Origin: an uncultured Verrucomicrobia subdivision 3 bacterium
GTDB taxonomy: Bacteria > Verrucomicrobiota > Verrucomicrobiia > Limisphaerales > UBA11358
Assembly: GCA_903884535.1 (NCBI GenBank)
Contig: CAISEZ010000093.1
Coordinates: 1 to 37,695 of the forward strand
DNA length: 37,695 bases
Direction of reading: 5' to 3'
Shown one piece after another: positions 7,415 through 26,070 of this stretch (the first letter of the stretch is position 1; each line of letters opens with the position of its first letter). Made by a program: the position numbers and the translations under genes. A model generated the notes under the pieces. That model was not told the DNA's origin. It saw nothing but the letters and a program-made list of their open reading frames with translations, and did no database searches.

Positions 7415-7514
7415 GAACCGATACTTCCCGACCCGGCCCGCCGACGCAACCAGATTTTTAGGCGGTTCGCGTCTCGAAAAAATTTGATTGCATGTCGGCG
7501 TGAGTTTTGCGCCC

Positions 7515-8498: not shown

Positions 8499-8502
8499 AC
8501 CG

Positions 8503-9264: not shown

Positions 9265-9269
9265 TTTTT

Positions 9270-9509
9270 ATGCGCGTTTTGTTTTTCGCCCAGCTCAAAG
9301 ATGCGACCGGTTGCGAAGCGGTCGAACTCGCCGTCGCCGCGCCGTTGGGTTCCGAACAGCTCTGGGTCGTGCTGCTCGAAAAATTTCCCGCGCTCGCCGC
9401 GCACCGCGCCTGCGTGCGGCTGGCGCGGAATCTGGAATACGCCGGCCCGCAGACGCTTTTCAACGACGATGACGAGGCGGCCTTGATTCCACCCGTTTCC
9501 GGCGGCTGA
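9270..9509 (+). CDS. moaD: Molybdopterin synthase sulfur-carrier subunit MoaD
   Basis: A 79-residue ubiquitin-like protein beginning MRVLFFAQLKDATGCEAVEL and ending PPVSGG. The C-terminal Gly-Gly is adenylated and thiocarboxylated so that the protein can donate sulfur to cyclic pyranopterin phosphate in complex with MoaE. The ATG at 9270 is preferred over longer frames in the region because it gives the exact family N-terminus. It lies five bases after the transporter gene and eleven before the moaE-moeA fusion. No MoeB-type activating enzyme is in this window. Confidence 0.9.
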   Translation: MRVLFFAQLKDATGCEAVELAVAAPLGSEQLWVVLLEKFPALAAHRACVRLARNLEYAGPQTLFNDDDEAALIPPVSGG

Positions 9510-9520
9510 AATATCATTTC

Positions 9521-11152
9521 ATGGAAATCACCATCCAGCTCACGCCTTCGCCGATTGCGGAAAAAATCCCGCCGCTGGCCGCCGGTGCCGCCGGCGCGTG
9601 GGTGGAATTTCGCGGCGTGGTGCGCGGCGTGGAAAACGGCGAAAACATTTCCGCGCTGGAATACGAAGCCTATCCGGAAATGGCGATTCGCGAAATCCGG
9701 CGGCTGCTCGAAAACATTTCCACGCGGCAACCGTGCCTGGCGGCACGCGTGATTCATCGCACTGGCATCGTGCCGGTGGGCGCGGCGGCCATTTACACCG
9801 GCATCGCGGCTAAACATCGCGCGGAAGGTTTTGCCCTGCTTGCCGAATTCATGGATCGGCTGAAACAGGACGTGCCTATCTGGAAACGCCGGGCGCTGCC
9901 GGTGGAGAATTCAGAAGCCAGAATTCAGAAGTCAGAACCGGCCATCGGCCATCGGCCATCGGCAATGCAACTCGACGAGGCGATGGCAGCCATCAACTCG
10001 CGCTGCCAGCCGTTACCGCCGATGCGCGTTGCCCTGGAAGAATCTTTTGGCCGCGTGTTGCGCGAGACGGTTTGCGCGCCGGAAGATTTGCCGCCGTTCG
10101 ATTGCTCCACCCGCGACGGTTTCGCCATTTTGGCGGATGACGCGTCAGCAAATTTACAGGTGGTAGACACGATTCACGCCGCCGGCTGGCAGCCGCGCCA
10201 GCTTCAATCTGGCGAATCCGTGCGTGTGGCCACCGGCGCGCCGCTGCCGTGCGGCGATCTGCGCGTGGTGATGCAGGAAAATGTGGAGCGCCACGGCGAC
10301 CAGATTAAAATTCTTAAACGGGAAGCCGGGCTGAATATCCGAAGCCGGGGCGAAGACGTGAAAGCAGGCGTGCCGCTGGTCAAAACGGGTTCGCGTTTGA
10401 ATGCGGGCAAGTCGGCGCTGCTGGCGACCGTCGGCCGCGTGCAGCCGCTGGTGAGTCCGCGCCTGCGCGTCGTGCATTTCACCACCGGCGATGAAATTGT
10501 TTCGCCCCATCAAACGCCGAAGCCAGGGCAAATCCGCGACAGCAATTCCATTTTGATCCGCGGATTACTTGGAAAAACTGCGTGTGATGTGACGCAGCGG
10601 CATTTGCCGGAAAACTTTGCGCCGGCGCAGGCCGCCATTTCGGCTTTTCGCTTTTCGCTTTCCGCTTTTGATTTGGTTTTGGTTTCCGGCGGCGCGAGCG
10701 TGGGCGACAAGGATTTTACGCGGCCGCTGCTGGAATGGCTGGGCTTTGAAATTATTTTTTCGCAGGTCGATCTGCGGCCCGGCCGACCGCTGATTTTTGG
10801 CGTGAACGGAAACCGCGTGGCGTTCGGGCTGCCGGGCAATCCGCTCTCGCACTTCGCCTGCTTTCATTTCGCCGTGGCGATGGCGCTGGCAAAAATGAGC
10901 GGCGAAACCACGCCGGCATTTTTGCGCGGCAAACTCGCGGCGGAACTGGCCGACGCCCGGTGTCCGCGCGAAACGCTCTGGCCGGCGCGCTGGGAAATTT
11001 CCGGCGGCGAAATCCGGCTGCACCCGCTGCCGTGGGCCAGCTCGGGCGACGTGACGTGTCTGGCGGCGGCCAATGCGTTGTTGCGCGTGCCGGCCAATTA
11101 CGCTTCGCTGGTGGCGGGCATGGAGCTGGATTTTTTGCCGGCGGATGGTTGA
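9521..11152 (+). CDS. MoaE-MoeA fusion: molybdopterin synthase large subunit plus molybdotransferase
   Basis: Residues 1-125 are MoaE, with the HRAEGF segment and the two lysines of the active site seven residues apart (K115 and K122 in MDRLKQDVPIWKRR). Residues 149-543 are MoeA, with PPFDCSTRDGFA, TTGDEIVS, GQIRDSNS, VSGGASVGDKDF, RPGRPL and GLPGNPLS. MoaE with MoaD makes molybdopterin; MoeA inserts molybdate into adenylated molybdopterin, so the fusion joins two non-adjacent steps. The linker (about 129-148) is encoded by simple repeats (gaattcagaag-type and three copies of cggccat), which look like captured intergenic DNA. No frameshift is seen. Translation could also restart at the ATG of codon 149. 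Confidence 0.92.
   Translation: MEITIQLTPSPIAEKIPPLAAGAAGAWVEFRGVVRGVENGENISALEYEAYPEMAIREIRRLLENISTRQPCLAARVIHRTGIVPVGAAAIYTGIAAKHRAEGFALLAEFMDRLKQDVPIWKRRALPVENSEARIQKSEPAIGHRPSAMQLDEAMAAINSRCQPLPPMRVALEESFGRVLRETVCAPEDLPPFDCSTRDGFAILADDASANLQVVDTIHAAGWQPRQLQSGESVRVATGAPLPCGDLRVVMQENVERHGDQIKILKREAGLNIRSRGEDVKAGVPLVKTGSRLNAGKSALLATVGRVQPLVSPRLRVVHFTTGDEIVSPHQTPKPGQIRDSNSILIRGLLGKTACDVTQRHLPENFAPAQAAISAFRFSLSAFDLVLVSGGASVGDKDFTRPLLEWLGFEIIFSQVDLRPGRPLIFGVNGNRVAFGLPGNPLSHFACFHFAVAMALAKMSGETTPAFLRGKLAAELADARCPRETLWPARWEISGGEIRLHPLPWASSGDVTCLAAANALLRVPANYASLVAGMELDFLPADG
9907..9962. repeat. Simple repeats encoding the MoaE-MoeA linker
   Basis: Two imperfect copies of gaattcagaagccagaattc-type sequence (9907-9937) are followed by about three tandem copies of cggccat (9938-9962). 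The pattern is typical of intergenic filler and contrasts with the codon use on both sides. An 11-base piece, agaagtcagaa, occurs again in reverse in the intergenic region near 30,098-30,108. The block is in frame, with no stop, and joins the two enzyme domains. Confidence 0.7.
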
Positions 11153-11170
11153 AACCACGAAACCCACGAA

Positions 11171-11626
11171 ATGACACGAAAGAAAAAATTTTCGCACCTC
11201 GCCGCCGACGGCGCAGCGCGCATGGTGAACGTCGGAGCCAAGCCGGTTCAACACCGGCGCGCGGTGGCCGCCGGAAAATTAATTTGCCAGCCTGCCACGA
11301 TTCGCGCGCTCAAAAAAAATGCGCTGCCGAAGGGCAACGTGCTGACGGTGGCGCAAATCGCCGGCATCCAGGCGGCGAAGCGGACGAGCGACTTGATTCC
11401 GCTGTGTCATCCGCTGGCATTGAACCATGTGAAAATTAGTTTCAAAGTGCGGCGCGACGCGGTGGAAATTTTCTGCACGGCGGAGACCAGCGCGCAAACC
11501 GGGGTGGAAATGGAAGCATTGACCGGCGTGGCCATGGCCGCATTGACGCTTTACGACATGTGTAAGGCGGTGGACAAGACGATGCGGATTGAAGACATCC
11601 GCGTCGTGGAAAAAATCAAAAAATGA
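11171..11626 (+). CDS. moaC: Cyclic pyranopterin monophosphate synthase MoaC
   Basis: A 151-residue protein with the family signatures MVNVGAKP, a LIPLCHPL active-site loop and a LYDMCKAVDK helix. It acts after MoaA, converting 3',8-cyclo-GTP to cyclic pyranopterin monophosphate. The ATG at 11171 sits inside an intergenic-type repeat (ccacgaaacccacgaaatga), so the first six residues (MTRKKK) are encoded by repeat DNA; homology begins at about residue 8. It lies 18 bp after the moaE-moeA gene. Confidence 0.95.
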   Translation: MTRKKKFSHLAADGAARMVNVGAKPVQHRRAVAAGKLICQPATIRALKKNALPKGNVLTVAQIAGIQAAKRTSDLIPLCHPLALNHVKISFKVRRDAVEIFCTAETSAQTGVEMEALTGVAMAALTLYDMCKAVDKTMRIEDIRVVEKIKK

Positions 11627-11699
11627 AGCTCACGCAAGGGCGCAAGGCACGAGGAGAATGTTCTCTGGAACAATTTCTTTGCGCCTTTGCGTGAGAGCT
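11627..11699. repeat. Inverted repeat between moaC and mogA
   Basis: The left arm agctcacgcaagggcgcaag (11627-11646) pairs with the right arm at 11677-11699 (ctttgcgcctttgcgtgaga, then gct) with a few mismatches, and the loop holds a second small near-palindrome (gagaatgttctc). It is a member of the cacgcaaaggcgcaaag palindromic repeats of these genomes. Transcribed within the operon, it would form a stable stem just upstream of mogA and could affect mRNA processing or translation. Confidence 0.55.
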
Positions 11700-11706
11700 G
11701 CTTGAA

Positions 11707-12189
11707 ATGAAAATCGGACGACTCACCATCAGCGACCGCGCCAGCGCTGGGATTTACGCGGACCGCAGCGGGCCGGAGATTGAAAACGTGCTGCGCGAAT
11801 TTCTCGGCGGCGCGGCAACCTTTGAATCGGCGATGGTGCCGGATGAAGTGGATTTGATTTCTGCGGCCCTGAAAAAATTCGCGGATGAATTGAACTGCGA
11901 TCTGATTGTGACGACCGGCGGCACGGGCATTTCCGCGCGCGACGTGACGCCGGAAGCGACGAAAGCAGTTTTGGAAAAAGAACTCCCCGGCTTCGGCGAA
12001 ATCATGCGGGTGCAATCGTTCGCCAAAGTGCGGACGGCAATTTTATCGCGTGCGACGGCCGGCACGCGCGGAAATAGTTTGATTCTCAATCTGCCGGGCA
12101 AACCGTCGGCGGTGCGCGAATGTTTGGAGATTCTCGCGCCAGCCATCCGCGAAGGCGTGGCGCATCTGCGCGGAGATGACCCGCATTAA
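11707..12189 (+). CDS. mog: Molybdopterin adenylyltransferase (MogA/MoaB)
   Basis: A 160-residue protein with ISDRASAGIYADRSGP at the N-terminus, the nucleotide/pterin-binding TTGGTGISARDVTPEAT block and a LPGKPSAVRECLE C-terminal motif. It adenylates molybdopterin before MoeA inserts molybdate. Length matches single-domain MogA/MoaB proteins. It is the last gene of the moa operon and ends 11 bases before a strong hairpin. Confidence 0.92.
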   Translation: MKIGRLTISDRASAGIYADRSGPEIENVLREFLGGAATFESAMVPDEVDLISAALKKFADELNCDLIVTTGGTGISARDVTPEATKAVLEKELPGFGEIMRVQSFAKVRTAILSRATAGTRGNSLILNLPGKPSAVRECLEILAPAIREGVAHLRGDDPH

Positions 12190-12246: not shown

Positions 12247-15200
12247 TCACTGTAATTGTTCCGCGCGGAAGATGCGATAGGGAACCGCTGTGTTGTTTGT
12301 GTAAAGGAACGGCGTGGTTGAACCAGTCATGGGAAGGTCACGAATAAAATCCCAGTTGTTGAAATCAAACGATCCCTGGATTTCATTCGTGGTGCCGACG
12401 GTGCCGGCGACGGAGAGTTGGAACTGGTTGTTGCCCAAACTGACCGGAGTTCCGCCCACGAAGGACGGATGCGAAGCGGGTGCGGCGAGGAATCCCAGCC
12501 AGAGTTGCGCATCGGTGGCCGCACCAGAACTGCCGCCAAAGAGGAATTCGTTGGTCGGCGCGGAATTGAACGTGGCCAGCGCGCCGCCGAGGGCGATCCG
12601 ACCGCCACTGTTGGCCAGCGCGGCGGCCACGAAACTGCCGTTGAGCGGCAGGCTAGAAAACATCCCATTTTCAGAACCGTAAATGTTGCGTCCGCCATAA
12701 CCCACGCCGCTGCCAAGGTCGGCATAGACATTGGTGGCGGTGGTTTGCGTGTTGGTCAGCACGGTAATGGAGCTGGCCACATCATAAAGTTGGTAGTTTT
12801 CCGTGCCAGCCGGGCTGACCACGTTGTAGTCGTTGACCAGCAGCTCGGCGTCCACGAGCTGGCTGGAAAGCGCCGGCAGATTGAAGACAAAGAAGTCGCG
12901 ATACTGGTTCCCCGAGTAGTTGCCCGCGAGGTAGTTTGGATTGCCGGCATTGTGACTGCCCAGATTGCTGTAAAAACCGCGGTTGGTGGAATTGATCACC
13001 AGAGCTGTGCCGAAGGTCAGACGCAGTTGCACGTCATCCGCCGGGCCGCCGGGACTGTAACCAAACAAATACTGGTTGTTATTGTCTATCGCATCCAATG
13101 TGTCGAGAGAGCCGCCCAAGGCCATTTGGCTGCCGCTGGCGGCGGTGGCGTCGTTCAGGAACGTGACGTTGAGCGGGATAATGGCCTTCTGGTAGGATTC
13201 ATTGGTGCCAACACTGCGCGCAGAATAGACCGCGCCGGTGCCGAGGTCATTGTAAATGCCAACCAGCCCGGAGCCACCCGCTTCGAGCGTGGCAACGGGT
13301 GTTGTGACCTTGCGCAGCAGATAGGTTTCCTGTCCGTGCGGGCTGGAGTTGTAGTAAGAATTGACAATGAGTTCGGCGTGGATGATCGCGCCGCTGAACA
13401 CCGGCATGTTAAAGACAAACCAGTTGCGGAAGAGATTCGTGGACGCATTATCTTCTCCCACCAAATAATTATTGTTAACTGGACTGTGAAGGCCCGTGCT
13501 GTCATACCAACCCCGGTCCACGGAGTTGAGCGTGACCGTATTCCCTGGCACACCCCACAAGGTAAGCACGATGTCATTGCCCGTGCCGCCGGTATAATTG
13601 ATGCGGAAGGTATAACCGCCGGCGGTGAACAGTGAGCCGTTGGCGATTCCGTTGAACGTGCCGCTGATGGCATCTGCGCCGTCGTTATTGAGGATGGTGA
13701 ACTGCTGGCCAATGGCCACGGGCGTGGTAAACGTGGGAACGACCGTGAGTGTGGCATTGGCGAGCGCAACTGTGCCGGTCACATTCAATTGATCATAGCC
13801 GCCGACGCCGGGAGTTGGGCCGGTGAGTTCAACAGTGAAGTTGCCGGACGAACTAAAGATCAGATTGCTGCTGTTGAGAATGCCGGGACTGTTGCCGGGA
13901 GCAATCGTGCCATTAGCCGCGAGCAGGCCAACCACACCAGTGCCGCCGAGCGTGGCGCTGGAGTCCACCGTGACTGGAATCAGGGGCTGTGAGCCATTAA
14001 TGATCATTTTACCTAGCTGAACACGAGCAATGCCGGCGGTGTAAGTGCTGTTACCGCCAATGGTGAAAGTGCCGCTACCAGTCTTGCCGACCGTCCAGCC
14101 CGAGGCATAGCCGGTGCCGGTGAAGGAACCGTCAAACTCGCTGGTGCCATTATTCAACCCGACATAAATCCAGCCGCCGACACCAAAATTTACCGTGCCC
14201 TGACCGCGCAAAGTATCGAGATAGGTATTGTAAGTGGAAAAGTCGAACAAGCCGCCGCCATTGATCAGAACATCGGCGGTATTTACTGTCTGCAGGTTGC
14301 CAGCCAAACGCACCGTGCCGCTACTGTTAATTGCAAGATTGCCGGGCACGGCTGCGAGTCCCGCGGTTTTGTTTAAAACCAGCGTGCCATTACTAACGGT
14401 GGTGGTGCCGGCGAAACTATTGGCACCCGAGCCGCTCAAGGTTAAAGTGCCGGGACCGGCTTTGATGACTCCACCCGCGCCATTAATGGCTCCGGTCACA
14501 GTGAGAAACGATCCGATATAAGGATAGATCGTGCTATCACTGCCCAAGGTGACCGCTCCTTCCCACGAACAGCTGCCACTACAGGACAGGGCGCCCCAAG
14601 CATATCCTGCGCCGTTCAAAACCAGCGGCTTTAGCCCAAAGTCGAGTCCGGTTCCGTCCAAGAAAAGCGAACCGCCGCTGTTGACAGTGGCTGGCACATT
14701 CGTGTTGCCCAAGGCGGTCGAAGTCTGCGCCCACAAGTTGCCGCCATTGATGGTGACGGGGCCGGTAAAAGAATTATTGCCAGAAAGGGTGACTTCACCC
14801 GCGCCAGCCTTGATCAAGCCATTGGTGGAGCCGCCACTGCCAACGTTGGCGCTGAATATCAGGTCGGGCGAGAAATAGTGGCCGAAGTTGGTGATGGTGT
14901 GAATGCCGTTGTAAAGGCTGGCATTGCCGCTAATGACGGACTGCGCCACCGTGCTGGGATTCACAAGAATGTCGCCATTGAGATAAAGCACGCCACTGCC
15001 GGCAGTAATTTGTGAACCTTTCATCGTAATCGCACCAACCCATTCATTATTTCCCGCCAAGTCCAAAAGACTCGATTCCGCCAAATTGACGGTCTTGCTG
15101 GGGCTGTCTATTTGAAAACTGTTCAGCAGGCGCACCGTCTGGCCGCCATTGATCACCAGCGGCCCGGGAATAGCCGCAATGGCATAACCTTTGCCTAGTT

Positions 15201-17706
15201 GGAGCAAGCCGCTGCTGACGGTGGTCGTGCCGGCATAGGTGTTCGCCAGTGATCCGGAGAACCGGTTCGTCGCCCCGCCGCTGGTCAGAGTCAGATTGCC
15301 CGTGCCGGTGATGGCACCTTGCATGTCAAAAATCCCAGTGGTGGCAAAACCCTTGATCGTCGCATTGCCAGCCAGGGTGATGGGACCGGCCCAAGTGCAA
15401 TTATATTGTGCAGTCAGCGCTGTGCCGTCGGCGAGCGTCACCGTCTCATTTGTGATTCCGGTTGAATAGACAAAGAGCTCGCCGCTGTTGGTCACGAAAG
15501 TATTGCCGCTTGCCGCACCCAAAGCCCACGGCGTTTCCGCGCTGACGGTCAGGTCGCCGCTGATGGTCAGCGGCCCGGTGAAAGAATTACTGCCCTGCAA
15601 TGCCAGCCAGGCACCGGGCGTGGCCCCGTTGACAATTTGCAAGCCGCCGCCGGCATCGGCTAGGCTGGCGGTGATGTATATGTTATGAGACGCCGATCCG
15701 TTATCCACCGTGATGGTGCGCAGTCCGTTGGAGAACCGGACGGCTCCGGTGATTTGTGCCGGCGAACTGGAGGCCAGCACATTGATGTCACCCGTCACTT
15801 GGAGTTGCGCCGAGCCGGTGGCAATGGTGCTACCATTCAAAGTAATCGCGCCGACGGTTCCCGAACCGCCTAAAAATGCGCCGGTATTGACACTGATGGG
15901 GCATTGCGGTTGCGAGCCGTTGACCAATAGAGTGCCGGTGGTCACTTTGGTCAGTCCGGTGTAAGTATTGTTGTTGGTTAGGATGAGGGTGGACGGATAT
16001 TGTTTGTCCACGGTGCCCGCGCCGGTGATGAGTCCGCCAAAGGTTGACGTGCCGCTGAAGCCGTAGTCCACATCAAGGTAGGCCCCGCCCAACGCGATGC
16101 TCGATCCCCCAGTGCCGTTTAATGCGCCGATATAGGTCGCGTAACCATTCACGTCTAAAAGCCCCCCGTCATTGATGCTCACTGACGAATCAAAGTGTAT
16201 CTGGTAATTTGCCAGCGGCCGGACGGTGCCGTTGATAACCAGCGCAGCCGGAACCGTTGTCCACGCGATAGCCGGCTTGTTCGGGAACAATGTGGCGGTG
16301 CCATCCACCGTGGTGATGCCCCCGTAAGTGTTGGCAGTGGTTCCTTCAAAATAATGCGCGCCGTAGCCGAACAATTCCAGTCCGCCTGCGCCGCCGATCG
16401 CTCCGACAACATGCAGCGCCGCCGCAGAATCCCAGGCGTCCAACGTGCTATTTGTGTTGAGGGTGATCGGCCCGGCCCAAGTATTGGTGCCGTTCTCAAC
16501 ATCCAAAGCTCCCCAACCACTGCTGACTCCCGGTCCATTTAATGTCAGCGCTTCGTTAGTAATGCCGATGTTGCCCTGCAAAACCAAGGATGCGCCGTTG
16601 CTGACCACCGTGCCGCTGTTGGTCGCGCCCAGAGCCAACGAATTAAACGCCCACAACCAGCCCTGACTGATGGTCGTTAGTCCGGTGTAAATGTTCGCCC
16701 CATAAAGATAGAGGGTGCCCGGCCCCGTCTTCGTGATGGCAGCGGTTCCCTGCACACTGGGATACACAAAAAGAGTAGCACTGCTCGCAACCGCCACCTC
16801 GCACGGTCCGGCTCCGAGTTGAACACTGCCTGTGCCGGTAATGTAACTCGGCGCTCCACCATTCACCGTAATCGTGCTGGGCGCAGTCAGGGTCAGGCTG
16901 CCGCTACCGAGTGCAACCGAGCCACCGCTTAACGTCAGGTTTGTGCCGATGACTTCGCTCCAGTTATTCAAATTCAGCGTGCCGGTGAGATTGATAGTGA
17001 TGGGGGCCGTGTCGGCAATCTCGGTGCTTTGAAGATGTTGAACCGTGGGACTGCCGGTGCCAGTGCCGTCACCAATCACCAGCGATCCTCCGAAGGCGCT
17101 GCTACCACCAACATTCAACTGTAGCGTGCCGCCAGCGACTAGTGTGGTGCCGGCGTAAGTATTATTCCCTGAACATTGGTAGAGCATTGTGCCTAAACCC
17201 GCCTTGGTCACCCCGACCGAGCCGGTTAGGTTGCCATCCAAAGTCAAGCTGACGCCGTTGCTGACAACAATCAGCGCGGTGGCGGTGGCCAGGGTAATGC
17301 TATTTTCAATCGTGTTAGCTCCAGTGGTGTTTGTGGCCACAATGCCGTTGGTCAGCGTGAAAGCATTACCGCGGATATCATAACCGCCGCCCGCACCGAC
17401 AAAGCGGATTTGATTCAAGGTCAGGCCGACAATATTATTGGTGTTGACCAGATTTGGCTGGCTGGCGGGAAAAATCACCGTATCGCCGTTGGCGGGAGTG
17501 CCGACATATCCCCAGTTGGCGTTGTAGTTCCAATTGGCGTTGGCACCGCCGCCGCCCGACCAACTCAACGTCGCGCCGCTGGCGGGAAGGCAAAGCAAGC
17601 CAACGCCGAGAATGAGCAGCCCAGTCCAGCGCGCGGGGGCCGTTCGAAGTCGGAAAAGTTTGGTCAAGTATGAGGTAGTGGTGTTGGTCGTGTTTTTTGT
17701 TTTCAT
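12247..17706 (-). CDS. Giant secreted protein with autotransporter-associated beta-strand (PATR) repeats
   Basis: An 1,819-residue exported protein. The start at 17706 is chosen over the in-frame ATG at 17718 because GGAGGA lies five bases before it. A basic N-terminus, a hydrophobic LLILGVGLLCLPASGA segment and an Ala-Thr cleavage point form a signal peptide. About nine PATR units follow (pattern kaGxGtLtLsGxNtYtGxTtVxxGtL), ending with an IAPGNSPGIL block near residue 1,270. Residues about 1,390-1,560 and 1,570-1,740 are two copies of one domain (each with NRGxY/DRGWY, NYLxG, WFVFNMP/FFVFNLP and a closing QLRLTF/QLWLGF), and a short C-terminal domain ends FRAEQLQ. There is no autotransporter beta-barrel and no PEP-CTERM tail. 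It is probably a surface or extracellular protein; ligand unknown. Confidence 0.85.
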   Translation of the reverse strand: MKTKNTTNTTTSYLTKLFRLRTAPARWTGLLILGVGLLCLPASGATLSWSGGGGANANWNYNANWGYVGTPANGDTVIFPASQPNLVNTNNIVGLTLNQIRFVGAGGGYDIRGNAFTLTNGIVATNTTGANTIENSITLATATALIVVSNGVSLTLDGNLTGSVGVTKAGLGTMLYQCSGNNTYAGTTLVAGGTLQLNVGGSSAFGGSLVIGDGTGTGSPTVQHLQSTEIADTAPITINLTGTLNLNNWSEVIGTNLTLSGGSVALGSGSLTLTAPSTITVNGGAPSYITGTGSVQLGAGPCEVAVASSATLFVYPSVQGTAAITKTGPGTLYLYGANIYTGLTTISQGWLWAFNSLALGATNSGTVVSNGASLVLQGNIGITNEALTLNGPGVSSGWGALDVENGTNTWAGPITLNTNSTLDAWDSAAALHVVGAIGGAGGLELFGYGAHYFEGTTANTYGGITTVDGTATLFPNKPAIAWTTVPAALVINGTVRPLANYQIHFDSSVSINDGGLLDVNGYATYIGALNGTGGSSIALGGAYLDVDYGFSGTSTFGGLITGAGTVDKQYPSTLILTNNNTYTGLTKVTTGTLLVNGSQPQCPISVNTGAFLGGSGTVGAITLNGSTIATGSAQLQVTGDINVLASSSPAQITGAVRFSNGLRTITVDNGSASHNIYITASLADAGGGLQIVNGATPGAWLALQGSNSFTGPLTISGDLTVSAETPWALGAASGNTFVTNSGELFVYSTGITNETVTLADGTALTAQYNCTWAGPITLAGNATIKGFATTGIFDMQGAITGTGNLTLTSGGATNRFSGSLANTYAGTTTVSSGLLQLGKGYAIAAIPGPLVINGGQTVRLLNSFQIDSPSKTVNLAESSLLDLAGNNEWVGAITMKGSQITAGSGVLYLNGDILVNPSTVAQSVISGNASLYNGIHTITNFGHYFSPDLIFSANVGSGGSTNGLIKAGAGEVTLSGNNSFTGPVTINGGNLWAQTSTALGNTNVPATVNSGGSLFLDGTGLDFGLKPLVLNGAGYAWGALSCSGSCSWEGAVTLGSDSTIYPYIGSFLTVTGAINGAGGVIKAGPGTLTLSGSGANSFAGTTTVSNGTLVLNKTAGLAAVPGNLAINSSGTVRLAGNLQTVNTADVLINGGGLFDFSTYNTYLDTLRGQGTVNFGVGGWIYVGLNNGTSEFDGSFTGTGYASGWTVGKTGSGTFTIGGNSTYTAGIARVQLGKMIINGSQPLIPVTVDSSATLGGTGVVGLLAANGTIAPGNSPGILNSSNLIFSSSGNFTVELTGPTPGVGGYDQLNVTGTVALANATLTVVPTFTTPVAIGQQFTILNNDGADAISGTFNGIANGSLFTAGGYTFRINYTGGTGNDIVLTLWGVPGNTVTLNSVDRGWYDSTGLHSPVNNNYLVGEDNASTNLFRNWFVFNMPVFSGAIIHAELIVNSYYNSSPHGQETYLLRKVTTPVATLEAGGSGLVGIYNDLGTGAVYSARSVGTNESYQKAIIPLNVTFLNDATAASGSQMALGGSLDTLDAIDNNNQYLFGYSPGGPADDVQLRLTFGTALVINSTNRGFYSNLGSHNAGNPNYLAGNYSGNQYRDFFVFNLPALSSQLVDAELLVNDYNVVSPAGTENYQLYDVASSITVLTNTQTTATNVYADLGSGVGYGGRNIYGSENGMFSSLPLNGSFVAAALANSGGRIALGGALATFNSAPTNEFLFGGSSGAATDAQLWLGFLAAPASHPSFVGGTPVSLGNNQFQLSVAGTVGTTNEIQGSFDFNNWDFIRDLPMTGSTTPFLYTNNTAVPYRIFRAEQLQ

Positions 17707-17966
17707 GATTTCCTCCATTGGTTGGCAAAAGCAAAGTTATGGTGAGAGTCGGTGCGCTGGAACGGCGACCCGTTTTGGCCCACGGTGAACGGCGCGTTTT
17801 TTGTTTTTGTGTGACGTCTCTCCATATCCTGATGCCCAGTAAGATTGATGTCAGCACAGTCCCCGAAGATTAGCTACACGCGGTTAATCCTTTCTTAACG
17901 CCGTTTGACTTCCGACACCCGCGGGCCGGATTTTTCGGGCCGCCTCATCGGATCAGAATCCGACTC

Positions 17967-19113: not shown

Positions 19114-20517
19114 TTATTTTTCCGCGCCGAGTAGATATTCCTCCAGCCGCGTGTGCCGGAAGACGTTCAGCACCGAGCCGGAGACGTTGATGAATTTGAG
19201 TGCGACGTCACGGCGCTTCAGATTTTTTTTGAAGCGCAGCATCAGGCCGATGCCCGTGCTGTCCACGAACGTCACGCGCGACAGGTCAATCACCACACTC
19301 ATCCCCGGCGTCACCTGCGACAATTCTGATTCGGTGTAAGCGCCCAATTCCACCACGTTCAGCGCGGTGATTTCGCCGACCCAGCGGATCTGCAATTCGG
19401 TTTCCAGCACGCCGCTGGTGACCGTTGGCGCGCCCGCCGCGCTTTCCATCAAAATCCGCGCGCCAGCCAGGCTGGCTTGAATGGTGAAAAATTCGTCCAG
19501 CTTCATCAGCCGGAGCGCCGCCGCAATCGGCGGCCGGGGCGCGACCAGAATAAACTGGTTGCCCAGTTCGCGGGCTTGTTTGCGCAGCCGGATCAGCAGC
19601 CCGATGCCCGTGCTGTCGGCGAAAACCGTGTCCGACAAATCAAACATCACATGGCCGCTGTCCACCGCGCGCAGCCATTCGGCACGGCACACGGCCACTT
19701 CCGCCGCGCCCAGCCGGACCGGGGCCCGGACGACCAGATTGCCGAACGGATCCGGCATGACGTTCGCCTCGTCGGCGGAAGTTGCGGACTTGCGCGTGCG
19801 CAACTGCCAGCTTTGCCGCAAAATGGCGCGGCTGAAATTCCAGATTTTTTTGGTGTTCGACTGCGGCGCGGCGCGCTTCAACGGCATCGTGCCGGCGAGA
19901 AAATCCAGCGTCGCCCCGATGCCGATGATGAACGGCACGCGGGCCTCGCGGAAATTCATGTTGATCCATTTTTCCTCTTTCGGGCAACCGAACGCCACGA
20001 GCAAAATGTCCGGCTTCACGGCGTGCAGCCGGTGCAGGATGTCGGTGTGGTCCATTTCTAGCACCGGTTTTTCCGGCGGCGAATACGTGCCGGCCACCTG
20101 GAGGCGGGGATGCTTGGCGAGGACCTTTTCGGCTGCGGCAACCACGCTTTGCTCGGTGCCGCCGAGAAAAAAGACGCGCCAGTTTTTCTGTTCCGCCAAC
20201 GCCAGCAGCGGCGGCACCAGCCGCAAGGCCGGAATGCAGGCGGGCACCGGATTGCCCAGCATTTTTGACGCCCAGACCACCGGCTTTTCGCCCGCCAGCA
20301 CGAGATGCGCGTCGAACAAAATCCGGCGCAGTTCCACATCTTCCATCGCTTCCACTAAAAAGCTCACATCCACCGTCGCGGCATAATGCGGCCGGCCCGA
20401 CGCCAACATCGCGGTAATGACGGCCAGTGCATCGTCCAGCGTGACGTTGTCAAACGGCACGCCGAGAATCGCGATGGGCGCGCGCTCGGTCGGGACGGCT
20501 GGCGAAGTGGTCGGCAT
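19114..20517 (-). CDS. WecG/TagA/CpsF-like domain fused to two STAS domains
   Basis: Residues 14-230 resemble WecG/TagA glycosyltransferases, which add N-acetylmannosamine-type sugars to lipid-linked intermediates: GVPFDNVTLDDALAVI, a PVVWASKMLG block, RVFFLGGTE, DILLVAFGCPKEEKW and GIGATLDFLAG. Two STAS domains follow at about 255-350 and 365-465, each with DSTGIGL, the anti-anti-sigma phosphorylation loop (S302/T303 and S420/T421). Several conserved enzyme positions are changed: the usual LxxADG reads LVLAGEK, the RVxGxDL block reads CIPALRL, PKQE reads PKEE, and the C-terminal RAPxWxxxxGLEW tail is lost. It may be a non-catalytic scaffold or a divergent enzyme. It is the last gene of the kinase/phosphatase operon, 70 bp after the receiver gene. 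Confidence 0.85.
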   Translation of the reverse strand: MPTTSPAVPTERAPIAILGVPFDNVTLDDALAVITAMLASGRPHYAATVDVSFLVEAMEDVELRRILFDAHLVLAGEKPVVWASKMLGNPVPACIPALRLVPPLLALAEQKNWRVFFLGGTEQSVVAAAEKVLAKHPRLQVAGTYSPPEKPVLEMDHTDILHRLHAVKPDILLVAFGCPKEEKWINMNFREARVPFIIGIGATLDFLAGTMPLKRAAPQSNTKKIWNFSRAILRQSWQLRTRKSATSADEANVMPDPFGNLVVRAPVRLGAAEVAVCRAEWLRAVDSGHVMFDLSDTVFADSTGIGLLIRLRKQARELGNQFILVAPRPPIAAALRLMKLDEFFTIQASLAGARILMESAAGAPTVTSGVLETELQIRWVGEITALNVVELGAYTESELSQVTPGMSVVIDLSRVTFVDSTGIGLMLRFKKNLKRRDVALKFINVSGSVLNVFRHTRLEEYLLGAEK

Positions 20518-20587: not shown

Positions 20588-20971
20588 TCATGGTTTTTTC
20601 TGCCCGATAATTTTTTGCAGCTCGCTGAGCAGTTGATTCGGACTGAATGGTTTTGCCAAAAACAGCGCCGCGCCGGCCACCTCGGCCTCGACGCGGGTCA
20701 GCGCGTGGCCCTTCGCCGAAAGCACCACCACGGGAATGTTTTTCGTCGCGGCATTTTCCTTCAATTGCCGCAACGCGCCGAGGCCGTCGAGGCCCGGCAT
20801 CATCACGTCCAGCACGATCAAGTCCGGCAATCCCGTGCCCGCCAGCTGCAGCGCCTCCTGGCCGTCGCGGCAGGTCACGACTTCATAGCCGCCTTTTTTG
20901 AACGTCATTTCCAATAGGCGCAACATGTAAATCTCATCGTCGGCCACGAGAATTTTTTGGGTCGGGTTCAT
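20588..20971 (-). CDS. Single-domain response regulator (CheY-like receiver)
   Basis: A 127-residue stand-alone receiver domain with all phosphorylation residues: acidic pair D11/D12, phospho-acceptor D55 in IVLDVMMPGLDG, S85 of the switch and K107 in LAKPF. There is no output domain. Its ATG overlaps the stop of the PP2C gene by four bases (ATGA), so it is translationally coupled. It probably receives phosphate from the hybrid kinase two genes upstream and either tunes the PP2C protein or serves as a phosphate sink. Confidence 0.93.
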   Translation of the reverse strand: MNPTQKILVADDEIYMLRLLEMTFKKGGYEVVTCRDGQEALQLAGTGLPDLIVLDVMMPGLDGLGALRQLKENAATKNIPVVVLSAKGHALTRVEAEVAGAALFLAKPFSPNQLLSELQKIIGQKKP

Positions 20972-22749
20972 GCGAGGTGTCGGATTAAAATAAACGTCTG
21001 GTCATCCAGCAGCGGGGCGGATTTCCGTTCCGCCGCGAGCCGTTCGAGCAAAAAGTTTTTGGCGACCACCGCGTCGCGGGTGGCCGCCGCGACTTCCGCC
21101 AGCAATTGGTGCAATTTTTTTTCGCCCAGCAGTTCGCCGTCGGCCGTGCGCGATTCCGTCACGCCATCAGTATAAAGCAGCGCCGCGCCGCCCGGCGGCA
21201 GCAGTGTCACGGTCGCCGGATAAATGGTATCCGGCTCGATGCCCAGCGGAAATCCCGGCTGGTCCAGCAAGCCCGGCGCGGTTTCGCCGGGTCGCCACAC
21301 GAGCAGCGGACAATGCCCCGCGCTGGCGGAAACCAGCTCGCCTCGGCGCGCATCCACGTAAACCAGCTTGGCCGTCACGAACATGTCCACGCGCGACAGA
21401 TCGGGAAACAAAATTCTGTTCGCCGCCGCGAGCAGTTCACCCGGCTGCGGAAATAAATGGCACATCGAGCGGATGGTGCTGCGCAGCACGGCCGCGAACA
21501 AAGCGGCCGGCACACCCTTGCCCATCACGTCGGCGATCACCAGCAGCACGGCGCCGTCGCCCGCCGGGATCACGTCGTAAAAATCGCCGCCGACCTGGAG
21601 CGCGCTTTCGCACACCGCCGCCAGGGCGAACGGCGGGCAGTCCGGCAATTTGGCTGGCAGCAGCGAACGCTGGATGTCCGCCGCGATTTCCAGTTCACGG
21701 CGCGTGACGCGCGCCGCCGTGCGCTCGTCGAGCAGTCGCGCGTTGACGATTTGGATCGCCAGAAAATCAATGAACGTGTGCAGCAAATTTAATTGCGCCG
21801 CGGTAAACGGTTTGTCCGCCGCCAGCCGGCCGAGCGCGGCAGTGCCCACGAGCTGGTCCGCCACAAAAAACGCGTGGCAGACGCCGTTGCCCACCGGCAT
21901 GACCGCGCGCAGCGGATCGTTGGCGTCGAGCGCATCCTTGGGATCGAACCAGATGTCCTGCCGGCTGCGCGCGGCGCGCACTTCCACCGAGGTCAAAAAA
22001 TCCGCCGTCAAATCCACGGCTGGGATCAAGGCGCGATTTTTTTCGGGCGAGGCGAACAAGGTTTCCAGTTTTTTTCCGTCCGCCGAAACCAGCCGCAGCA
22101 GCGCGCCGTCGGCTTCGGCAATCTGCATCAGATCGCGGAGCAGCCGCTGCGAAAAATCTTTCACATCGTTGTTTTTGCCGAGTTCCGCGCTGTAACGAAA
22201 CATCGCCACCAGACTTTCGTAGCTCGACGACAGCTCGGCGGCCATGTCGTTCAGCGCGCCTTCCGCTTCGGCGAGGCGCTGCTGCAACTGGCCGGTGTCC
22301 GCCAAGATATTTTTGTCCGCCGCCGGCCGCGCCCGGCGTAGCACCAGAATATTTTCGCCGGGATGCCGGAAATAAACCGCGCGGTCGGTGAGCGATTTCA
22401 TCAGGAACAAACCGCGGCCGCTTTCGGATTCGTCCTCGGGCAGTTTGACCTCGGCCGGCCAGTCAAAGCCGGCGGTGTGGTCGGTGATGCGCGCTTCCAC
22501 GTCGCGTTCGCCGCAGGAAATCTCAATGACGACCGGCAGCTTTTGCGCGGCGGGCGGCGCATATTTGACCGCGTTGTTGGCACCTTCCATCAGCGCCAAC
22601 TCCCACGCGCCCAGATCGTCGGCGGACAGTCTTTTTTCGGCGAGCCAGCTTTGCACCTGCGCGACGGCGGCGCGGACGGCGGAAAATTCGCACGCGGTTT
22701 CCAGCCGCAGGGAAATTCGGTGTTCGCAAGTTTTGACGTCGTTATTCAT
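20968..22749 (-). CDS. RsbW-like kinase domain / GAF / SpoIIE-type PP2C phosphatase fusion
   Basis: A 593-residue signalling protein. Residues 10-140 are a HATPase of the anti-sigma kinase (RsbW/SpoIIAB) type, with the N-box E55-x2-N58N59, ITDHTAGFDW and GRGLFLM. A coiled coil (about 150-175) leads to a GAF-like domain (about 190-340). Residues 355-593 are a SpoIIE/RsbU phosphatase with its metal-binding aspartates: D389 in VGGDFYD, D407 in IADVMGKG, D528 in LLYTDGVTE and D582/D583 in LLDDQTF. It thus carries both the kinase and the phosphatase that set the phosphorylation of STAS proteins, and a double-STAS protein is encoded two genes downstream. It starts directly after the stop of the histidine kinase (TGAATG). 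Confidence 0.92.
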   Translation of the reverse strand: MNNDVKTCEHRISLRLETACEFSAVRAAVAQVQSWLAEKRLSADDLGAWELALMEGANNAVKYAPPAAQKLPVVIEISCGERDVEARITDHTAGFDWPAEVKLPEDESESGRGLFLMKSLTDRAVYFRHPGENILVLRRARPAADKNILADTGQLQQRLAEAEGALNDMAAELSSSYESLVAMFRYSAELGKNNDVKDFSQRLLRDLMQIAEADGALLRLVSADGKKLETLFASPEKNRALIPAVDLTADFLTSVEVRAARSRQDIWFDPKDALDANDPLRAVMPVGNGVCHAFFVADQLVGTAALGRLAADKPFTAAQLNLLHTFIDFLAIQIVNARLLDERTAARVTRRELEIAADIQRSLLPAKLPDCPPFALAAVCESALQVGGDFYDVIPAGDGAVLLVIADVMGKGVPAALFAAVLRSTIRSMCHLFPQPGELLAAANRILFPDLSRVDMFVTAKLVYVDARRGELVSASAGHCPLLVWRPGETAPGLLDQPGFPLGIEPDTIYPATVTLLPPGGAALLYTDGVTESRTADGELLGEKKLHQLLAEVAAATRDAVVAKNFLLERLAAERKSAPLLDDQTFILIRHLA

Positions 22750-25700
22750 TCAGGCGGGCCGGGCGCGCTGTTCTTCCAGCCAGCGGCGCAGTTTCTGCGT
22801 GGCGGATTCGGTCTGCGTCTGTAATTTCGCGAGACCCGCCCCGGCGCGCGGCGCATCGCCCACTTCGGCGGCATCCTCGATGGCGAGGAAGATTTCCGAG
22901 AGCGGCTGGAAACCGAACAGCAGCGACAGGACCTTGAGCGAATGCGCGGAGCGTTCGAGTTCGGGCCACTGGCCGGCGGCGTGGAGCCGCTGGATTTCCG
23001 CGAGGCGGTCGGGCAGTTCTTTCAGAAAATCGCCGACCATGTCGCACACGGCGGCGGTGTCGAGTTCCTGGCAGAATTGTTCGAGCCGGGCAGGATCGAA
23101 CTCTTCGGGCGGGCTGGTGGCCGCCGGGATGGCGGCCATCAGCGCGTTGTAAAGCTGCTGGCCGGTGAACGGCTTGGCGATGTAATCGTCCATGCCGGCG
23201 GCGAGGCAGCGCTCGCGTTCGCCGGTGAGCGCGTTGGCGGTGACGGCGATGATGCGGACCGGATGCGCCGCTTTGGCTTCCATTTCGAGATGCCGGATGG
23301 CGGCGGTGGCTTCGTGGCCGTCGAGTTCGGGCATGTTGCAGTCCATGAGAATGGCGTGGTAAAAATCCGGTTTGAATTTTTCCACGGCTTCGCGCCCGTT
23401 CACGGCCCAGTCGGCGCGCGCGCCGAAGGTGTCGAGCATCAACTGGCAAAGCTTGCGGTTGAACGGATGATCCTCGGCAACGAGAATTTTTAAATCGGAA
23501 ATCGGCGTGCGTTTGGCCGCGGCGTCTTCGCGGCGGATCAATTCCGTGTCGCCCGGCATTTTGAGCGCGCGGTTGAGTTCCGGTTTTTTGCCGAGGATCA
23601 CGTCCACCAGCGCGGTGAACAGCGGCTGCTCGCGGACGGGTTTGAGCAGCACACTGGCAAAGAGCGCCAGGCCGTCATCCTCCTCGCCGAGTGAGGCGGC
23701 CGCGCTGGTCAGTAACAGGCATTGCACGCGGTCGCGCTGGTCGGCGAGCTGCCGGCGCAACTCCACGCCGCCGAGGGTCAGCATTTCGTCATCGCAGATC
23801 ACCAGCGGCAGCACGGCGGCGCGCAAATCATGCCGGAGTGCGCGGCCCAAATCGGCCACGGTCGCCACGGCGCGGCTGTCCACACCCCAGCCGCGCAATT
23901 GTTCGACGAGCGATTCGCGCAGGCTCGGATTCGGCACGGCGACGACGGTGTGCATGAACACCAGACCGGGAAAACAGCGTTCCAGAGCGGGCTGTGGCGG
24001 CACTTCAAATGGCAGCTCAAACCAGAACGTCGAGCCAGTGCCGGCGGCGCTGTGAACGCCGATGCGGCCGCCCATTAGTTCAACAATTTTCCGTGAGATG
24101 GCCAGACCAAGGCCGGTGCCGCCGAATTTCCGCGACGACGACGTGTCAGCCTGCACGAACGGCTGGAACAGAAGTTTGGTCTGCTCGGGCGTCAACCCGA
24201 TGCCGGTGTCGGTGACTTCAAACCGCAATTTGATCCGGCCTTTCGCGTGCAGCAGCGGCGACACGCGGACGACGACTTCGCCGTGGTCGGTGAATTTGAT
24301 GCCGTTGCCGACGAGGTTGAGCAGCACCTGCCGAAGCCGGATGGGATCGCCGACGAGGTGATGCGGCACTTCGCGATTGACCACGGCGGCGAGGGCGAGT
24401 TTTTTCCCCGGCTCACGCGTGGCCGCATTTTCCAAAACGGAATCCACAATGCTGCGCAGGGAAAAATCCTCGCGGGCGATGGTCATCTTGCCGGCCTCGA
24501 TTTTGGAAAAATCCAGCACGTCGTTGATGACATGCAGCAAGGCGTTGGCGCTCTCGGCAGCGGCATCGGCGAATTCGCGCTGGCGGCGGTCTAGCCGCGT
24601 CTGCGCCAGCAGCTCGACCATGCCAAGGATGCCGCCGAGCGGCGTGCGGATCTCGTGGCTCATGTTCGCGAGAAATTCGCTCTTGGCGGTGTTCGCGCGG
24701 TTCGCCTGCTCGGCGGCGGCGCGGGCATCGGCCACGGCATGTTTCAATTCGAGATTGGCCCGTTCGACTTCGGCCTTGGCATCCTGCAACGCGAGTTCGG
24801 CGCGCTTGCGCGGCGTGATGTTTTGGATGACCGCCTGGAATTCTTTTTCCGTGCCGGCGCCGCGGTTCAGCCGGCGCAGGTTGTATTGCTGCCATTCCAC
24901 ATGGCCGTCGGCGGCCTCGGCCTTGCGGTCAAAATTCAACACCGGCCGGTCTTCCGGCAGTGCTTTGAAATTGTCTTCCAGCGTTCGCGCTTCCACTTTG
25001 ACCAGGTCTTTGAAAAAATTTTTGCCGAGCAATTCCGCCTCCGGCTTGCCGTAAAAAGCGCAGTAAGCCGGATTGGCAAACGTGATCGTGCCGTCCGGTT
25101 GGAACCGGCAGATCAGGTCTTCCTGGTCCGCCACCACGGCGCGCAGCCGCTTTTCATTTTCCACCAGTTCCGCCTGCGCCCGGCGGCGCTCGCTGGCAGC
25201 GGCGGCCAGCAGCAGGTTGGAAACCGCGATGATGCCGATGTAGCTGCCAACCAAACGCAGGCTGTCAGTCAGGTTGCCCGTGACAAACGGCCCGCCGCCG
25301 TGCCACAGCGAATAAATCGCTAGCGACGCGACCAGCAGCGTGCCGGTCGCCGCGCCGCGCGGACCGAACCGCAGCGCGCCCCACACCAGAAACGGATACG
25401 GCAGATAGGCGAACGGATAATTTTGGATGCCATACACCAGCCACGTGTCGAACGAAATCAGGGTGCCGCCCACCAGCCCCGTCAAGCACAACAGCGCCTC
25501 CAAAACCCGCCAGAACGTCAGCCGCACGGAAGACGGCACGGCCCAGGTGATGATGACCGGCGTCACCACCAAAATGGCCAGCGCATTCGGCACCCACCAT
25601 TGCAGCGTGAGTGGCGCCAGCGCGTCCCAGACCGCTTTTTTGGCGTAGATCAGGCCGACGACATTAAAGGCGGCGTTGACCGTGGTGCCCAGCGCGCACG

Positions 25701-26070
25701 CCAGCAAAATGTAGCCGGCCGCGTCGCGCGTCCGCTCCATCGCGTTGTCAAAACGCACGAGCCGTTTCAACAGGTAGGCGCACAGCACCGCGCCCACCGT
25801 GTTGCCCAGCACCGTGCCCAGCATGAAATAGCCCAAGGGTGCGCCGTCAATCAGGGAAAATAAAACCGCGCCGAGCGCGATGCTCGGCCAGAATTCGTAG
25901 CCGAACAATAAGATCGCGGCCAGGGCAATGCCTGCCGGCGGCCAGACCAGCTGCACGCTGCCCGCCAGAAATGAAGCTTTTTTGCCCAGCACCCCGCCCA
26001 GCACATAAAGTGCGGTGAGCGCGGTGACGCGTGTGAACACGGCCAGTCCGGGATGTTTGGTTTGACTCAC
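22750..26070 (-). CDS. MASE1 hybrid histidine kinase with PAS, two receivers and Hpt
   Basis: An 1,106-residue membrane sensor from a GTG start. Residues 1-290 are a MASE1 multi-pass membrane domain (VWPPAGIALAAILLFG). A PAS domain (about 305-425) and a coiled coil lead to HisKA with the phospho-His H472 (SHEIRTPLGG) and a HATPase (about 575-690; N-box LLNLVGNGIKFT, DTGIG, GGTGLGLAIS). The first receiver (about 703-830) is degenerate: the acidic pair of strand 1 is missing (VVAVPNPS), although D760 and K810 remain. The second receiver is intact (E866/D867, D910 in LMDCNMP, K966). An Hpt domain near the end has H1043 (SAHSLK). It heads the operon and likely drives phosphorelay to the stand-alone receiver. 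Confidence 0.92.
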   Translation of the reverse strand: MSQTKHPGLAVFTRVTALTALYVLGGVLGKKASFLAGSVQLVWPPAGIALAAILLFGYEFWPSIALGAVLFSLIDGAPLGYFMLGTVLGNTVGAVLCAYLLKRLVRFDNAMERTRDAAGYILLACALGTTVNAAFNVVGLIYAKKAVWDALAPLTLQWWVPNALAILVVTPVIITWAVPSSVRLTFWRVLEALLCLTGLVGGTLISFDTWLVYGIQNYPFAYLPYPFLVWGALRFGPRGAATGTLLVASLAIYSLWHGGGPFVTGNLTDSLRLVGSYIGIIAVSNLLLAAAASERRRAQAELVENEKRLRAVVADQEDLICRFQPDGTITFANPAYCAFYGKPEAELLGKNFFKDLVKVEARTLEDNFKALPEDRPVLNFDRKAEAADGHVEWQQYNLRRLNRGAGTEKEFQAVIQNITPRKRAELALQDAKAEVERANLELKHAVADARAAAEQANRANTAKSEFLANMSHEIRTPLGGILGMVELLAQTRLDRRQREFADAAAESANALLHVINDVLDFSKIEAGKMTIAREDFSLRSIVDSVLENAATREPGKKLALAAVVNREVPHHLVGDPIRLRQVLLNLVGNGIKFTDHGEVVVRVSPLLHAKGRIKLRFEVTDTGIGLTPEQTKLLFQPFVQADTSSSRKFGGTGLGLAISRKIVELMGGRIGVHSAAGTGSTFWFELPFEVPPQPALERCFPGLVFMHTVVAVPNPSLRESLVEQLRGWGVDSRAVATVADLGRALRHDLRAAVLPLVICDDEMLTLGGVELRRQLADQRDRVQCLLLTSAAASLGEEDDGLALFASVLLKPVREQPLFTALVDVILGKKPELNRALKMPGDTELIRREDAAAKRTPISDLKILVAEDHPFNRKLCQLMLDTFGARADWAVNGREAVEKFKPDFYHAILMDCNMPELDGHEATAAIRHLEMEAKAAHPVRIIAVTANALTGERERCLAAGMDDYIAKPFTGQQLYNALMAAIPAATSPPEEFDPARLEQFCQELDTAAVCDMVGDFLKELPDRLAEIQRLHAAGQWPELERSAHSLKVLSLLFGFQPLSEIFLAIEDAAEVGDAPRAGAGLAKLQTQTESATQKLRRWLEEQRARPA

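Follow-up and report, generated by a model that had tools for sequence, protein, structure and literature searches.

A WecG-STAS-STAS protein with an altered active site in an uncultured Limisphaerales bacterium: a candidate pseudoenzyme beside predicted partner-switch genes

What becomes of a glycosyltransferase once it has been joined to signalling domains and has lost residues that its relatives keep? The question is raised by a gene in a 37,695-nucleotide stretch of DNA from an uncultured Verrucomicrobia subdivision 3 bacterium (order Limisphaerales; assembly GCA_903884535.1, contig CAISEZ010000093.1), referred to here as the window. The gene, at 19114..20517 on the minus strand, encodes a WecG/TagA-type glycosyltransferase (GT) domain followed by two STAS domains, and part of the active site of the former is gone. 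The reading favoured here, at a probability of roughly 0.6, is that the product is a pseudoenzyme signalling protein whose STAS serines are controlled by an RsbW-like kinase and a PP2C phosphatase. In RsbW/PP2C/STAS switches generally, kinase and phosphatase set the phosphorylation state of a STAS domain, and that state decides which partner is held. The favoured reading draws on sequence evidence: the order of the domains, the residues lost and kept, a nested clade of similar proteins, purifying selection, and a predicted kinase/phosphatase gene that lies nearby and tends to occur in the same genomes. Phosphorylation, catalytic inactivity and output of the protein are predictions from that evidence.

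The window protein and its active site

The 467-residue open reading frame (ORF), classed here as the pseudo-WecG type, starts with ATG and is free of internal stops. A homologue search with the protein returned 1292 proteins at E<=1e-3; the best 120 of these, the window's own included, all carry WecG, STAS and STAS_2 domains and cover 97-100% of the query. As far as sequence can tell, the WecG-STAS-STAS protein is thus confirmed as a real and intact gene product.

Does its first part belong to the WecB/TagA/CpsF family? Both sequence and fold place it there. The WecG/TagA domain (GT-E fold; residues 12-215, 19873..20484, minus strand like every part of this gene) is recognised by Pfam, by phmmer and by superposition of a model. 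The Pfam profile Glyco_tran_WecG (PF03808) matches residues 70-212 with 128.5 bits against a cut-off of 27.4, reaching only profile positions 1-140 of 168, and the phmmer alignment to TagA spans residues 15-238. NCBIfam TIGR00696 is narrowly missed (68.8 versus 69); L052, an intact fusion from a relative, scores 137.1. AlphaFold2 models were obtained for the window protein (pLDDT 89.4, pTM 0.75) and for L052 (pLDDT 90.9, pTM 0.89). The first-pass annotation of the window, made from the letters alone, had proposed a structural comparison with Thermoanaerobacter TagA, and the predicted GT parts do superpose on TagA, with a target TM of up to 0.94 for the window protein (7mpk_C, 27% identity) and 0.95 for L052.

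Which residues have been lost? Numbering follows T. italicus TagA (7mpk/5wb4), to which the window protein was related by pairwise and family alignment. In TagA, the D65A change lowers activity from 1.5 to 0.052 uM/min and T37A lowers it to 0.41; without its C-terminus the T. italicus protein is inactive and dimeric and the B. subtilis protein is mostly soluble, and Arg221 of the C-terminal appendage has been modelled at the leaving group in a stabilising role (PMC6493773). The window protein has T37 and E168 (as T48 and E182) and an equivalent of D191, and is changed at N39 (to D50), D65 (G76), G66 (E77), R83 (C94), G86 (A97), D88 (R99) and Q167 (E181). The DG motif that holds the proposed catalytic base therefore reads GE (G76-E77, 20287..20292), and Arg83, on the lipid diphosphate side in the TagA model (PMC6493773), is C94 (20236..20238). 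The appendage, of the form RAPxWMQ..xEWxFR..EPRR and carrying R214 and R221, is missing at residues 212-228 (19834..19884), as judged from the spacing between D191 and F228. The annotation had reported both the replaced Asp and the absent membrane-associating tail, and both claims stand. Nor has the Asp simply shifted in the alignment; E77 lies one position later. Compared with TagA/TarA, the window protein thus shares the fold and the T37, E168 and D191 equivalents, lacks Asp65, Gly66, Arg83, Gly86 and the appendage, and has two STAS domains added.

To judge which of these changes are informative, a family alignment of 190 rows was used, 120 of them the best database matches to the window protein, so that the degenerate clade is over-represented; some of these database rows are the same, or almost the same, as loci fetched from genomes. 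The losses of D65, R83 and the appendage occur together in 101 of the 190 rows, here called degenerate, which were compared with 78 intact rows (among them L084 and L090, which carry the appendage), with 11 rows left out. Lost in the degenerate rows are N39, D65, G66, R83, G86 and the RAP motif, together with the appendage residues G208, E210, W211, R214 and R221; for G66 and G86 the loss holds for most rows. D191 and F228 lie 42 residues apart in 78/78 intact rows and 18-23 apart in the 101 degenerate ones, which in the alignment is a clean removal of about 23 residues. A second yardstick is the set of 120 proteins listed for the same genome's canonical, exosortase-linked WecG (that WecG included), where D65, G66, R83, G86, E210, W211, R214 and R221 are each kept in 120/120. 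As judged from these alignments, the informative positions are D65, G66, R83 and G86 and, in the appendage, E210, W211, R214 and R221.

Other positions proved to be poor markers. The annotation had also pointed to the lost GxD of the acceptor loop and to PKEE in place of PKQE. Both changes are present (D88 to R99; Q167 to E181, 19975..19977), but neither is diagnostic: position 88 is Gly in 9 of 60 intact order loci, and Q167 is kept in 87/101 degenerate relatives (Glu in 12/101). Both were rejected as signs of a pseudoenzyme. The change at N39 was rejected likewise, since the canonical set has Gly there in 120/120; Thr at position 37 occurs in 0/120 of the same set.

If the acceptor side has been lost, what has become of the donor side? 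In the degenerate rows it is mostly retained (T37 in 84/101, Q167 in 87, E168 in 101, D191 in 90), and 99/101 have an acidic residue at position 65 or 66, E77 in the window protein. Residual or altered activity is therefore possible, and an altered but active transferase, using the Glu at 65/66 as base on a soluble acceptor and working under STAS control, is an alternative that seems unlikely but deserves a hearing. A soluble acceptor would account for the loss of both the lipid-side Arg and the membrane appendage. Against this, the modelled leaving-group stabiliser Arg221 (PMC6493773) is missing in 101/101 degenerate rows, G66 and G86 are mostly lost, and one degenerate member, L058, is gapped over the aligned 65-88 loop. 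Moreover, the residue beside the uracil-stacking position (TagA 138) is Phe in 70/78 intact rows and Asp or Glu in 92/101 degenerate ones. The annotation's suggestion of a pseudoenzyme or altered enzyme turned into a phosphorylation-controlled regulator is thus supported in part, by the loss of Asp, Arg83 and appendage, by the two intact STAS sites and by the predicted kinase/phosphatase gene described below; E77 leaves some room for an altered enzyme.

A pattern of donor side kept and acceptor side lost would also suit a ligand sensor, in which a dead domain binds a nucleotide sugar and reports the level of the precursor to the STAS switch; the TagA-like core is predicted to be intact. This is judged improbable, given the acidic residue beside the uracil site in 92/101 rows and the loss of Q167 from the window protein itself.

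The other half of the protein shows no comparable change in its predicted phosphosites. STAS domain 1 (residues 263-352, 19462..19731) is assigned by Pfam STAS, which matches two stretches in the protein, and STAS domain 2 (residues 381-458, 19144..19377) by STAS_2. The STAS parts of the models superpose on RsbV (RsbV/RsbW complex 6m36, target TM 0.86), SpoIIAA and similar chains, and a D-S-x-G phosphosite accompanies the STAS fold. As the annotation had said, both domains keep DSTGIGL; the predicted phosphosites are Ser302 (19612..19614), with Ser in 101/101 degenerate and 76/78 intact rows, and Ser420 (19258..19260), with Ser in 101/101 and 72/78. The two halves are linked by a helix in the model (residues 222-239, 19801..19854), likely to be the equivalent of TagA H12. 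Both groups conserve its F228, Q235 and L239, though L239 is less constant among the intact rows.

Spread of the fusion and history of the loss

Is the loss a consequence of the fusion? The first-pass annotation took the architecture to be undescribed. No paper on a WecG-STAS fusion was found in the literature searched, from which subscription papers were mostly absent, so that absence from print is not shown. In genomes the picture is different. When 293 genomes of the order were searched, 123 had matches at E<=1e-20. From the match list, 71 of these were read as holding a protein closely related to that of the window; in three of them (G170, G281 and G286) the fetched frame has no STAS domain. 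The other order matches among those listed are about 27-34% identical, as for canonical WecG. Sixty-seven order loci were fetched, three of them with no STAS domain in the fetched frame, and D65, R83 and the appendage are all kept in 60. Six loci have E/N, E/C or G/C at D65/R83 and no appendage, and the remaining one is L058 (4194-5501, the same locus as L014), a degenerate member with the gap over the 65-88 loop and no appendage. All seven come from genomes of the window's genus.

Beyond the order, a search of 387 genomes of the phylum gave 30 loci including the window's own; the other 29 keep D65 in 29/29 and R83 in 28/29. Eight of them were scanned with Pfam, and in seven (L142, L133, L119, L125, L117, L140 and L130) one or two STAS domains follow WecG. 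By these domain assignments many genomes of the order carry the WecG-STAS-STAS fusion, which also occurs in other Verrucomicrobiota, and most copies retain the catalytic set. The idea that fusion in itself implies catalytic loss was rejected, since D65 and R83 are kept in 60/67 order and 28/29 phylum loci; contrary to what a tie between architecture and loss would lead one to expect, other WecG-STAS fusions have mostly not lost the residues that the window protein has lost.

Two of the phylum loci differ in form. The eighth one scanned, L118, has GT4 and WecG and no STAS domain (1456-3708, minus strand, cut at the locus end), a longer WecG protein elsewhere in the phylum. In L142 (877-3459, minus strand), a long N-terminal part without assignment is joined to WecG-STAS.

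When, then, was the catalytic set lost? The nearest intact fusions, of the L052 type, are about 63-67% identical to the window protein and share its architecture. Fourteen relatives were examined by name, all labelled Verrucomicrobia subdivision 3/Limisphaerales or Verrucomicrobiia: nine are degenerate (L003, L005, L006, L007, L008, L009, L011, L014 and L016), four intact (L004, L010, L012 and L013) and one in between (L015). A tree was built from 108 rows with IQ-TREE (short search, support by SH-aLRT only), and 36 of its 105 inner branches are drawn open. In it, the degenerate rows fall together as a single group nested within a grade of intact rows, with basal support of 91 and 97. At least three changes are needed for D65 and at least three for R83; the five appendage changes printed are an overcount, as L084 and L090 were wrongly scored as lacking it. 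Since most loci with the fusion have an intact catalytic set, the fusion would have come first and the degeneration later, in one clade.

The rows at the side of this clade suggest an order of events. The appendage is gone wholly or partly in P0017, P0037 and L015, which keep D65 and R83, and D65 is lost with R83 kept in P0116, P0025, P0065 and P0083; most other rows of the group have lost all three. The alignment thus suggests that the appendage was lost first, then D65, then R83, with P0020 and P0047 as exceptions. One genome, G277, holds both a degenerate and an intact WecG-STAS-STAS copy (L049 and L050) and one match to the RsbW-PP2C protein described below (E<=1e-90).

Is the altered domain still under selection? 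For the degenerate GT domain, five pairs gave dN/dS of 0.13/0.61 (the window and L047), 0.084/0.73, 0.105/0.98, 0.092/1.48 (L049 and L055) and 0.251/1.69; the pairs share members, and in some of them dS approaches saturation. The ratios, 0.06-0.21, lie in the range of the STAS domains and somewhat above those of four intact pairs (0.04-0.08). Constraint is weaker than in the intact domain, yet plain: the domain is under purifying selection, which would be expected of an altered transferase as well. The view that the GT part is a relic in decay, attached to STAS domains that alone have a function, can claim the lost catalytic residues and appendage and this slightly weaker constraint, but it is scarcely credible: dN/dS is well below 1, and in 63 columns, 48 of which belong to the GT domain, each group is conserved at >=90%. 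Simple decay was rejected on the former ground.

Partner-switch genes and the exopolysaccharide cluster

Which genes could act on the STAS serines? Next upstream of the fusion gene, 70 bases away, lies a gene for a receiver-only response regulator (20588..20971, minus strand; Pfam Response_reg). It overlaps by 4 bases the second gene upstream (20968..22749, minus), which encodes an RsbW-like ATPase (HATPase_c_2)-GAF-SpoIIE/PP2C protein, the predicted kinase/phosphatase. Further upstream is a MASE1-PAS-HisKA-HATPase-REC-REC-Hpt hybrid histidine kinase (22750..26070, minus; Pfam), the likely input. All four genes occur in the window's order in L006, and the histidine kinase is upstream without the full set in L007 and L009. 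Among the nine degenerate named loci, the receiver is next upstream in seven and RsbW-PP2C is present in five, some contigs ending nearby; of the four intact loci, L013 (which is also the L054 locus) is alone in having the receiver/RsbW-PP2C pair directly upstream.

Adjacency is matched by co-occurrence. The RsbW-PP2C protein (E<=1e-90) is found in 53 of the 71 order genomes with a close fusion relative versus 19 of the 222 without, and within the window's genus in 15/18 versus 0/19, counts that are not corrected for shared ancestry. The three exceptions in the genus are two genomes with no STAS domain in the frame and one genome that is 73% complete. In 12 of the 53 genomes that have both genes they share a contig, at <=3 kb in five and 11-26 kb in seven, and a receiver gene stands beside RsbW-PP2C in 11 of the 12 fetched regions (once cut by the contig end), the exception being L152. 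All three parts of a partner-switching module are thus genetically linked, through the window's neighbours, adjacency in relatives and co-occurrence. In L149, a 118-residue ORF with STAS only (7267-7623, minus strand) lies upstream of the RsbW-PP2C gene and overlaps its start.

How might such a module work? The hybrid histidine kinase would pass a signal to the receiver protein, which would set the balance between kinase and phosphatase. The RsbW-like kinase/PP2C protein would then phosphorylate or dephosphorylate Ser302 and Ser420, whose state would decide if the STAS domains bind the RsbW domain or some other partner. The GT domain, presumably dead as a catalyst, would no longer go to the membrane and would serve for docking.

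The closest known parallel in control is SypE-SypA of Vibrio fischeri, where a dual serine kinase/phosphatase under a phosphorelay controls the STAS residue S56 and a polysaccharide biofilm; the target and mechanism of SypA are described as unknown in both papers (PMC4517449; PMC8256260). In both systems a kinase/phosphatase acts on a STAS serine, as predicted for the window. However, SypA is a free STAS protein, whereas the STAS domains of the window sit in a WecG-type polypeptide, and SypE is itself a response regulator, while the receiver of the window is a separate gene. A review names Anabaena all4160 as a glycosyltransferase of some kind with a STAS domain, there at the N-terminus (PMC8256260). 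Post-translational control of the enzyme family is known from Caulobacter, where HfiA acts on the WecG/TagA-family protein HfsJ via C-terminal residues; HfiA differs in being a free inhibitor of 68 residues, and HfsJ is required for holdfast synthesis (PMC3900383).

The HfsJ case and the dimer of appendage-less TagA bear on a further alternative, in which the window protein would pair, as decoy or as subunit, with the canonical WecG that remains in the genome (at the exosortase locus on contig C32), and the mixed dimer would keep that enzyme off the membrane. TagA without its appendage is an inactive dimer in solution (PMC6493773), the inhibition of HfsJ requires residues near its C-terminus (PMC3900383), and the canonical WecG, with D65, R83 and appendage, is present in the genome. 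Nevertheless, the two GT domains are only 31% identical, the genes are on different contigs, and the linker helix, which is still present, may lie over the surface through which TagA dimerises; the decoy is therefore regarded as very improbable.

The pseudoenzyme reading has its own difficulties, and several observations weigh against it. The donor side and the acidic residue at 65 or 66 are largely retained, as detailed above, and P0020 and P0047 lack Arg83 and the appendage yet have Asp65. The selection ratios exceed those of intact relatives, and the co-occurrence counts may partly reflect shared ancestry. The 19 genomes with the kinase/phosphatase and without a close fusion indicate that it can have other partners. 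All the named relatives are metagenome-assembled genomes, and no sigma factor or other obvious output was found among 17 scanned window proteins.

What did the fusion do before the loss? A GT4-type gene follows the relative of the window protein in 43 of the 67 order loci and overlaps it by 4 bases in 24; no degenerate locus is among the 43; a polymerase/ligase-related gene is found in 14 loci and a gene related to nonribosomal peptide synthetases (NRPS) in 14. These cluster counts are rough, since ORFs were picked simply, Pfam was run on one member of each neighbour cluster, and 14 of the 67 loci yielded no neighbours, the fusion being overlapped by a longer ORF. The NRPS-related gene (condensation, AMP-binding and PP-binding domains) lies near intact relatives in L071, L074, L078, L079, L081, L087 and others.

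In genome G198 most of a layout can be made out. A sugar-transferase-like gene (under the Pfam cut-off) is followed by RsbW-PP2C, receiver, pyrophosphatase, phosphodiesterase and GT4 genes, next come flippase-like, GT4 and GT2 genes, two genes without assignment and an opposite-strand polymerase/ligase-like gene, and after these the intact fusion, GT4, an ATPase and two export genes. The intact copy thus sits, by these assignments, within an exopolysaccharide cluster headed by an RsbW/PP2C-receiver pair. L013 has an intermediate arrangement, with the switch pair upstream and GT4-type and export genes downstream. Intact fusions of the L052 type therefore resemble the window protein in architecture and in having an RsbW/PP2C gene in most of the same genomes, and differ in their intact catalytic set and appendage and in the GT4-type gene that follows in many loci.

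Does the window's genome still have these enzymes? Twelve genomes of the genus were searched at E<=1e-60, five with an intact fusion (G277 has both kinds) and seven with degenerate copies only. At this threshold 5/5 of the former have both the GT4 gene and the export/chain-length gene, whereas neither gene was found in the latter (0/7, the window's genome included); a flippase query was less clear (3/5 and 0/7). The cluster appears to be gone from the window's clade. That the window protein regulates the enzymes of the ancestral cluster in its own genome was rejected, as the GT4 and export genes were not found there at E<=1e-60. The annotation's link to exopolysaccharide synthesis hence fits the intact relatives, but not the window's genome and the six other degenerate-only ones, where the two cluster genes were not found.

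In the intact ancestors the same switch would have acted directly on a committed exopolysaccharide transferase, because STAS substrate domains and enzyme form one polypeptide; by analogy with HfsJ, phosphorylation could set membrane use or activity in intact relatives. In the window's clade, the acceptor and membrane half of the transferase is disabled and switch genes stand alongside, for which a pseudoenzyme hub is the simplest account. The full history, with a pseudo-WecG clade that outlived its exopolysaccharide cluster to become a pure phospho-signalling hub and with ancestors in which the RsbW/PP2C-STAS switch acted directly on a glycan-committing transferase, is put forward tentatively, at somewhat less than even odds. 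If it is true, the intact ancestors point to a concrete candidate for the target of SypA-like STAS proteins: STAS domains are joined to the class of enzyme that commits a lipid-linked sugar to a polymer in many genomes, with a predicted kinase/phosphatase in most of the same genomes. Purified components would then allow direct control of an enzyme by partner switching to be examined in vitro. A natural experiment would be provided by the degenerate clade, in which the same architecture with the enzyme side disabled separates signalling from catalysis.

Other genes of the window and the genome

The canonical WecG of the genome (G000, contig C32; L114 10030-10794, minus strand) adjoins an exosortase gene and is near a sugar transferase gene. 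In the window, a molybdenum cofactor cluster at 7488-12189 comprises MoaA, a TauE-like protein, MoaE-MoeA, MoaC and a MoCF-type protein; its MoaE-MoeA member (9521-11152, plus strand, 543 residues) is an apparent fusion. It is preceded by a large serine recombinase with Resolvase and Recombinase domains (5245-7275, minus) and followed by an autotransporter-like protein of 1823 residues with PATR repeats (12247-17718, minus), which is related to a stretch in L003. Finally, an ORF of 1135 residues at 30289-33696 (plus strand) has no Pfam match; over its first 493 residues it shares 88% identity with a stretch that adjoins the same operon in L006.

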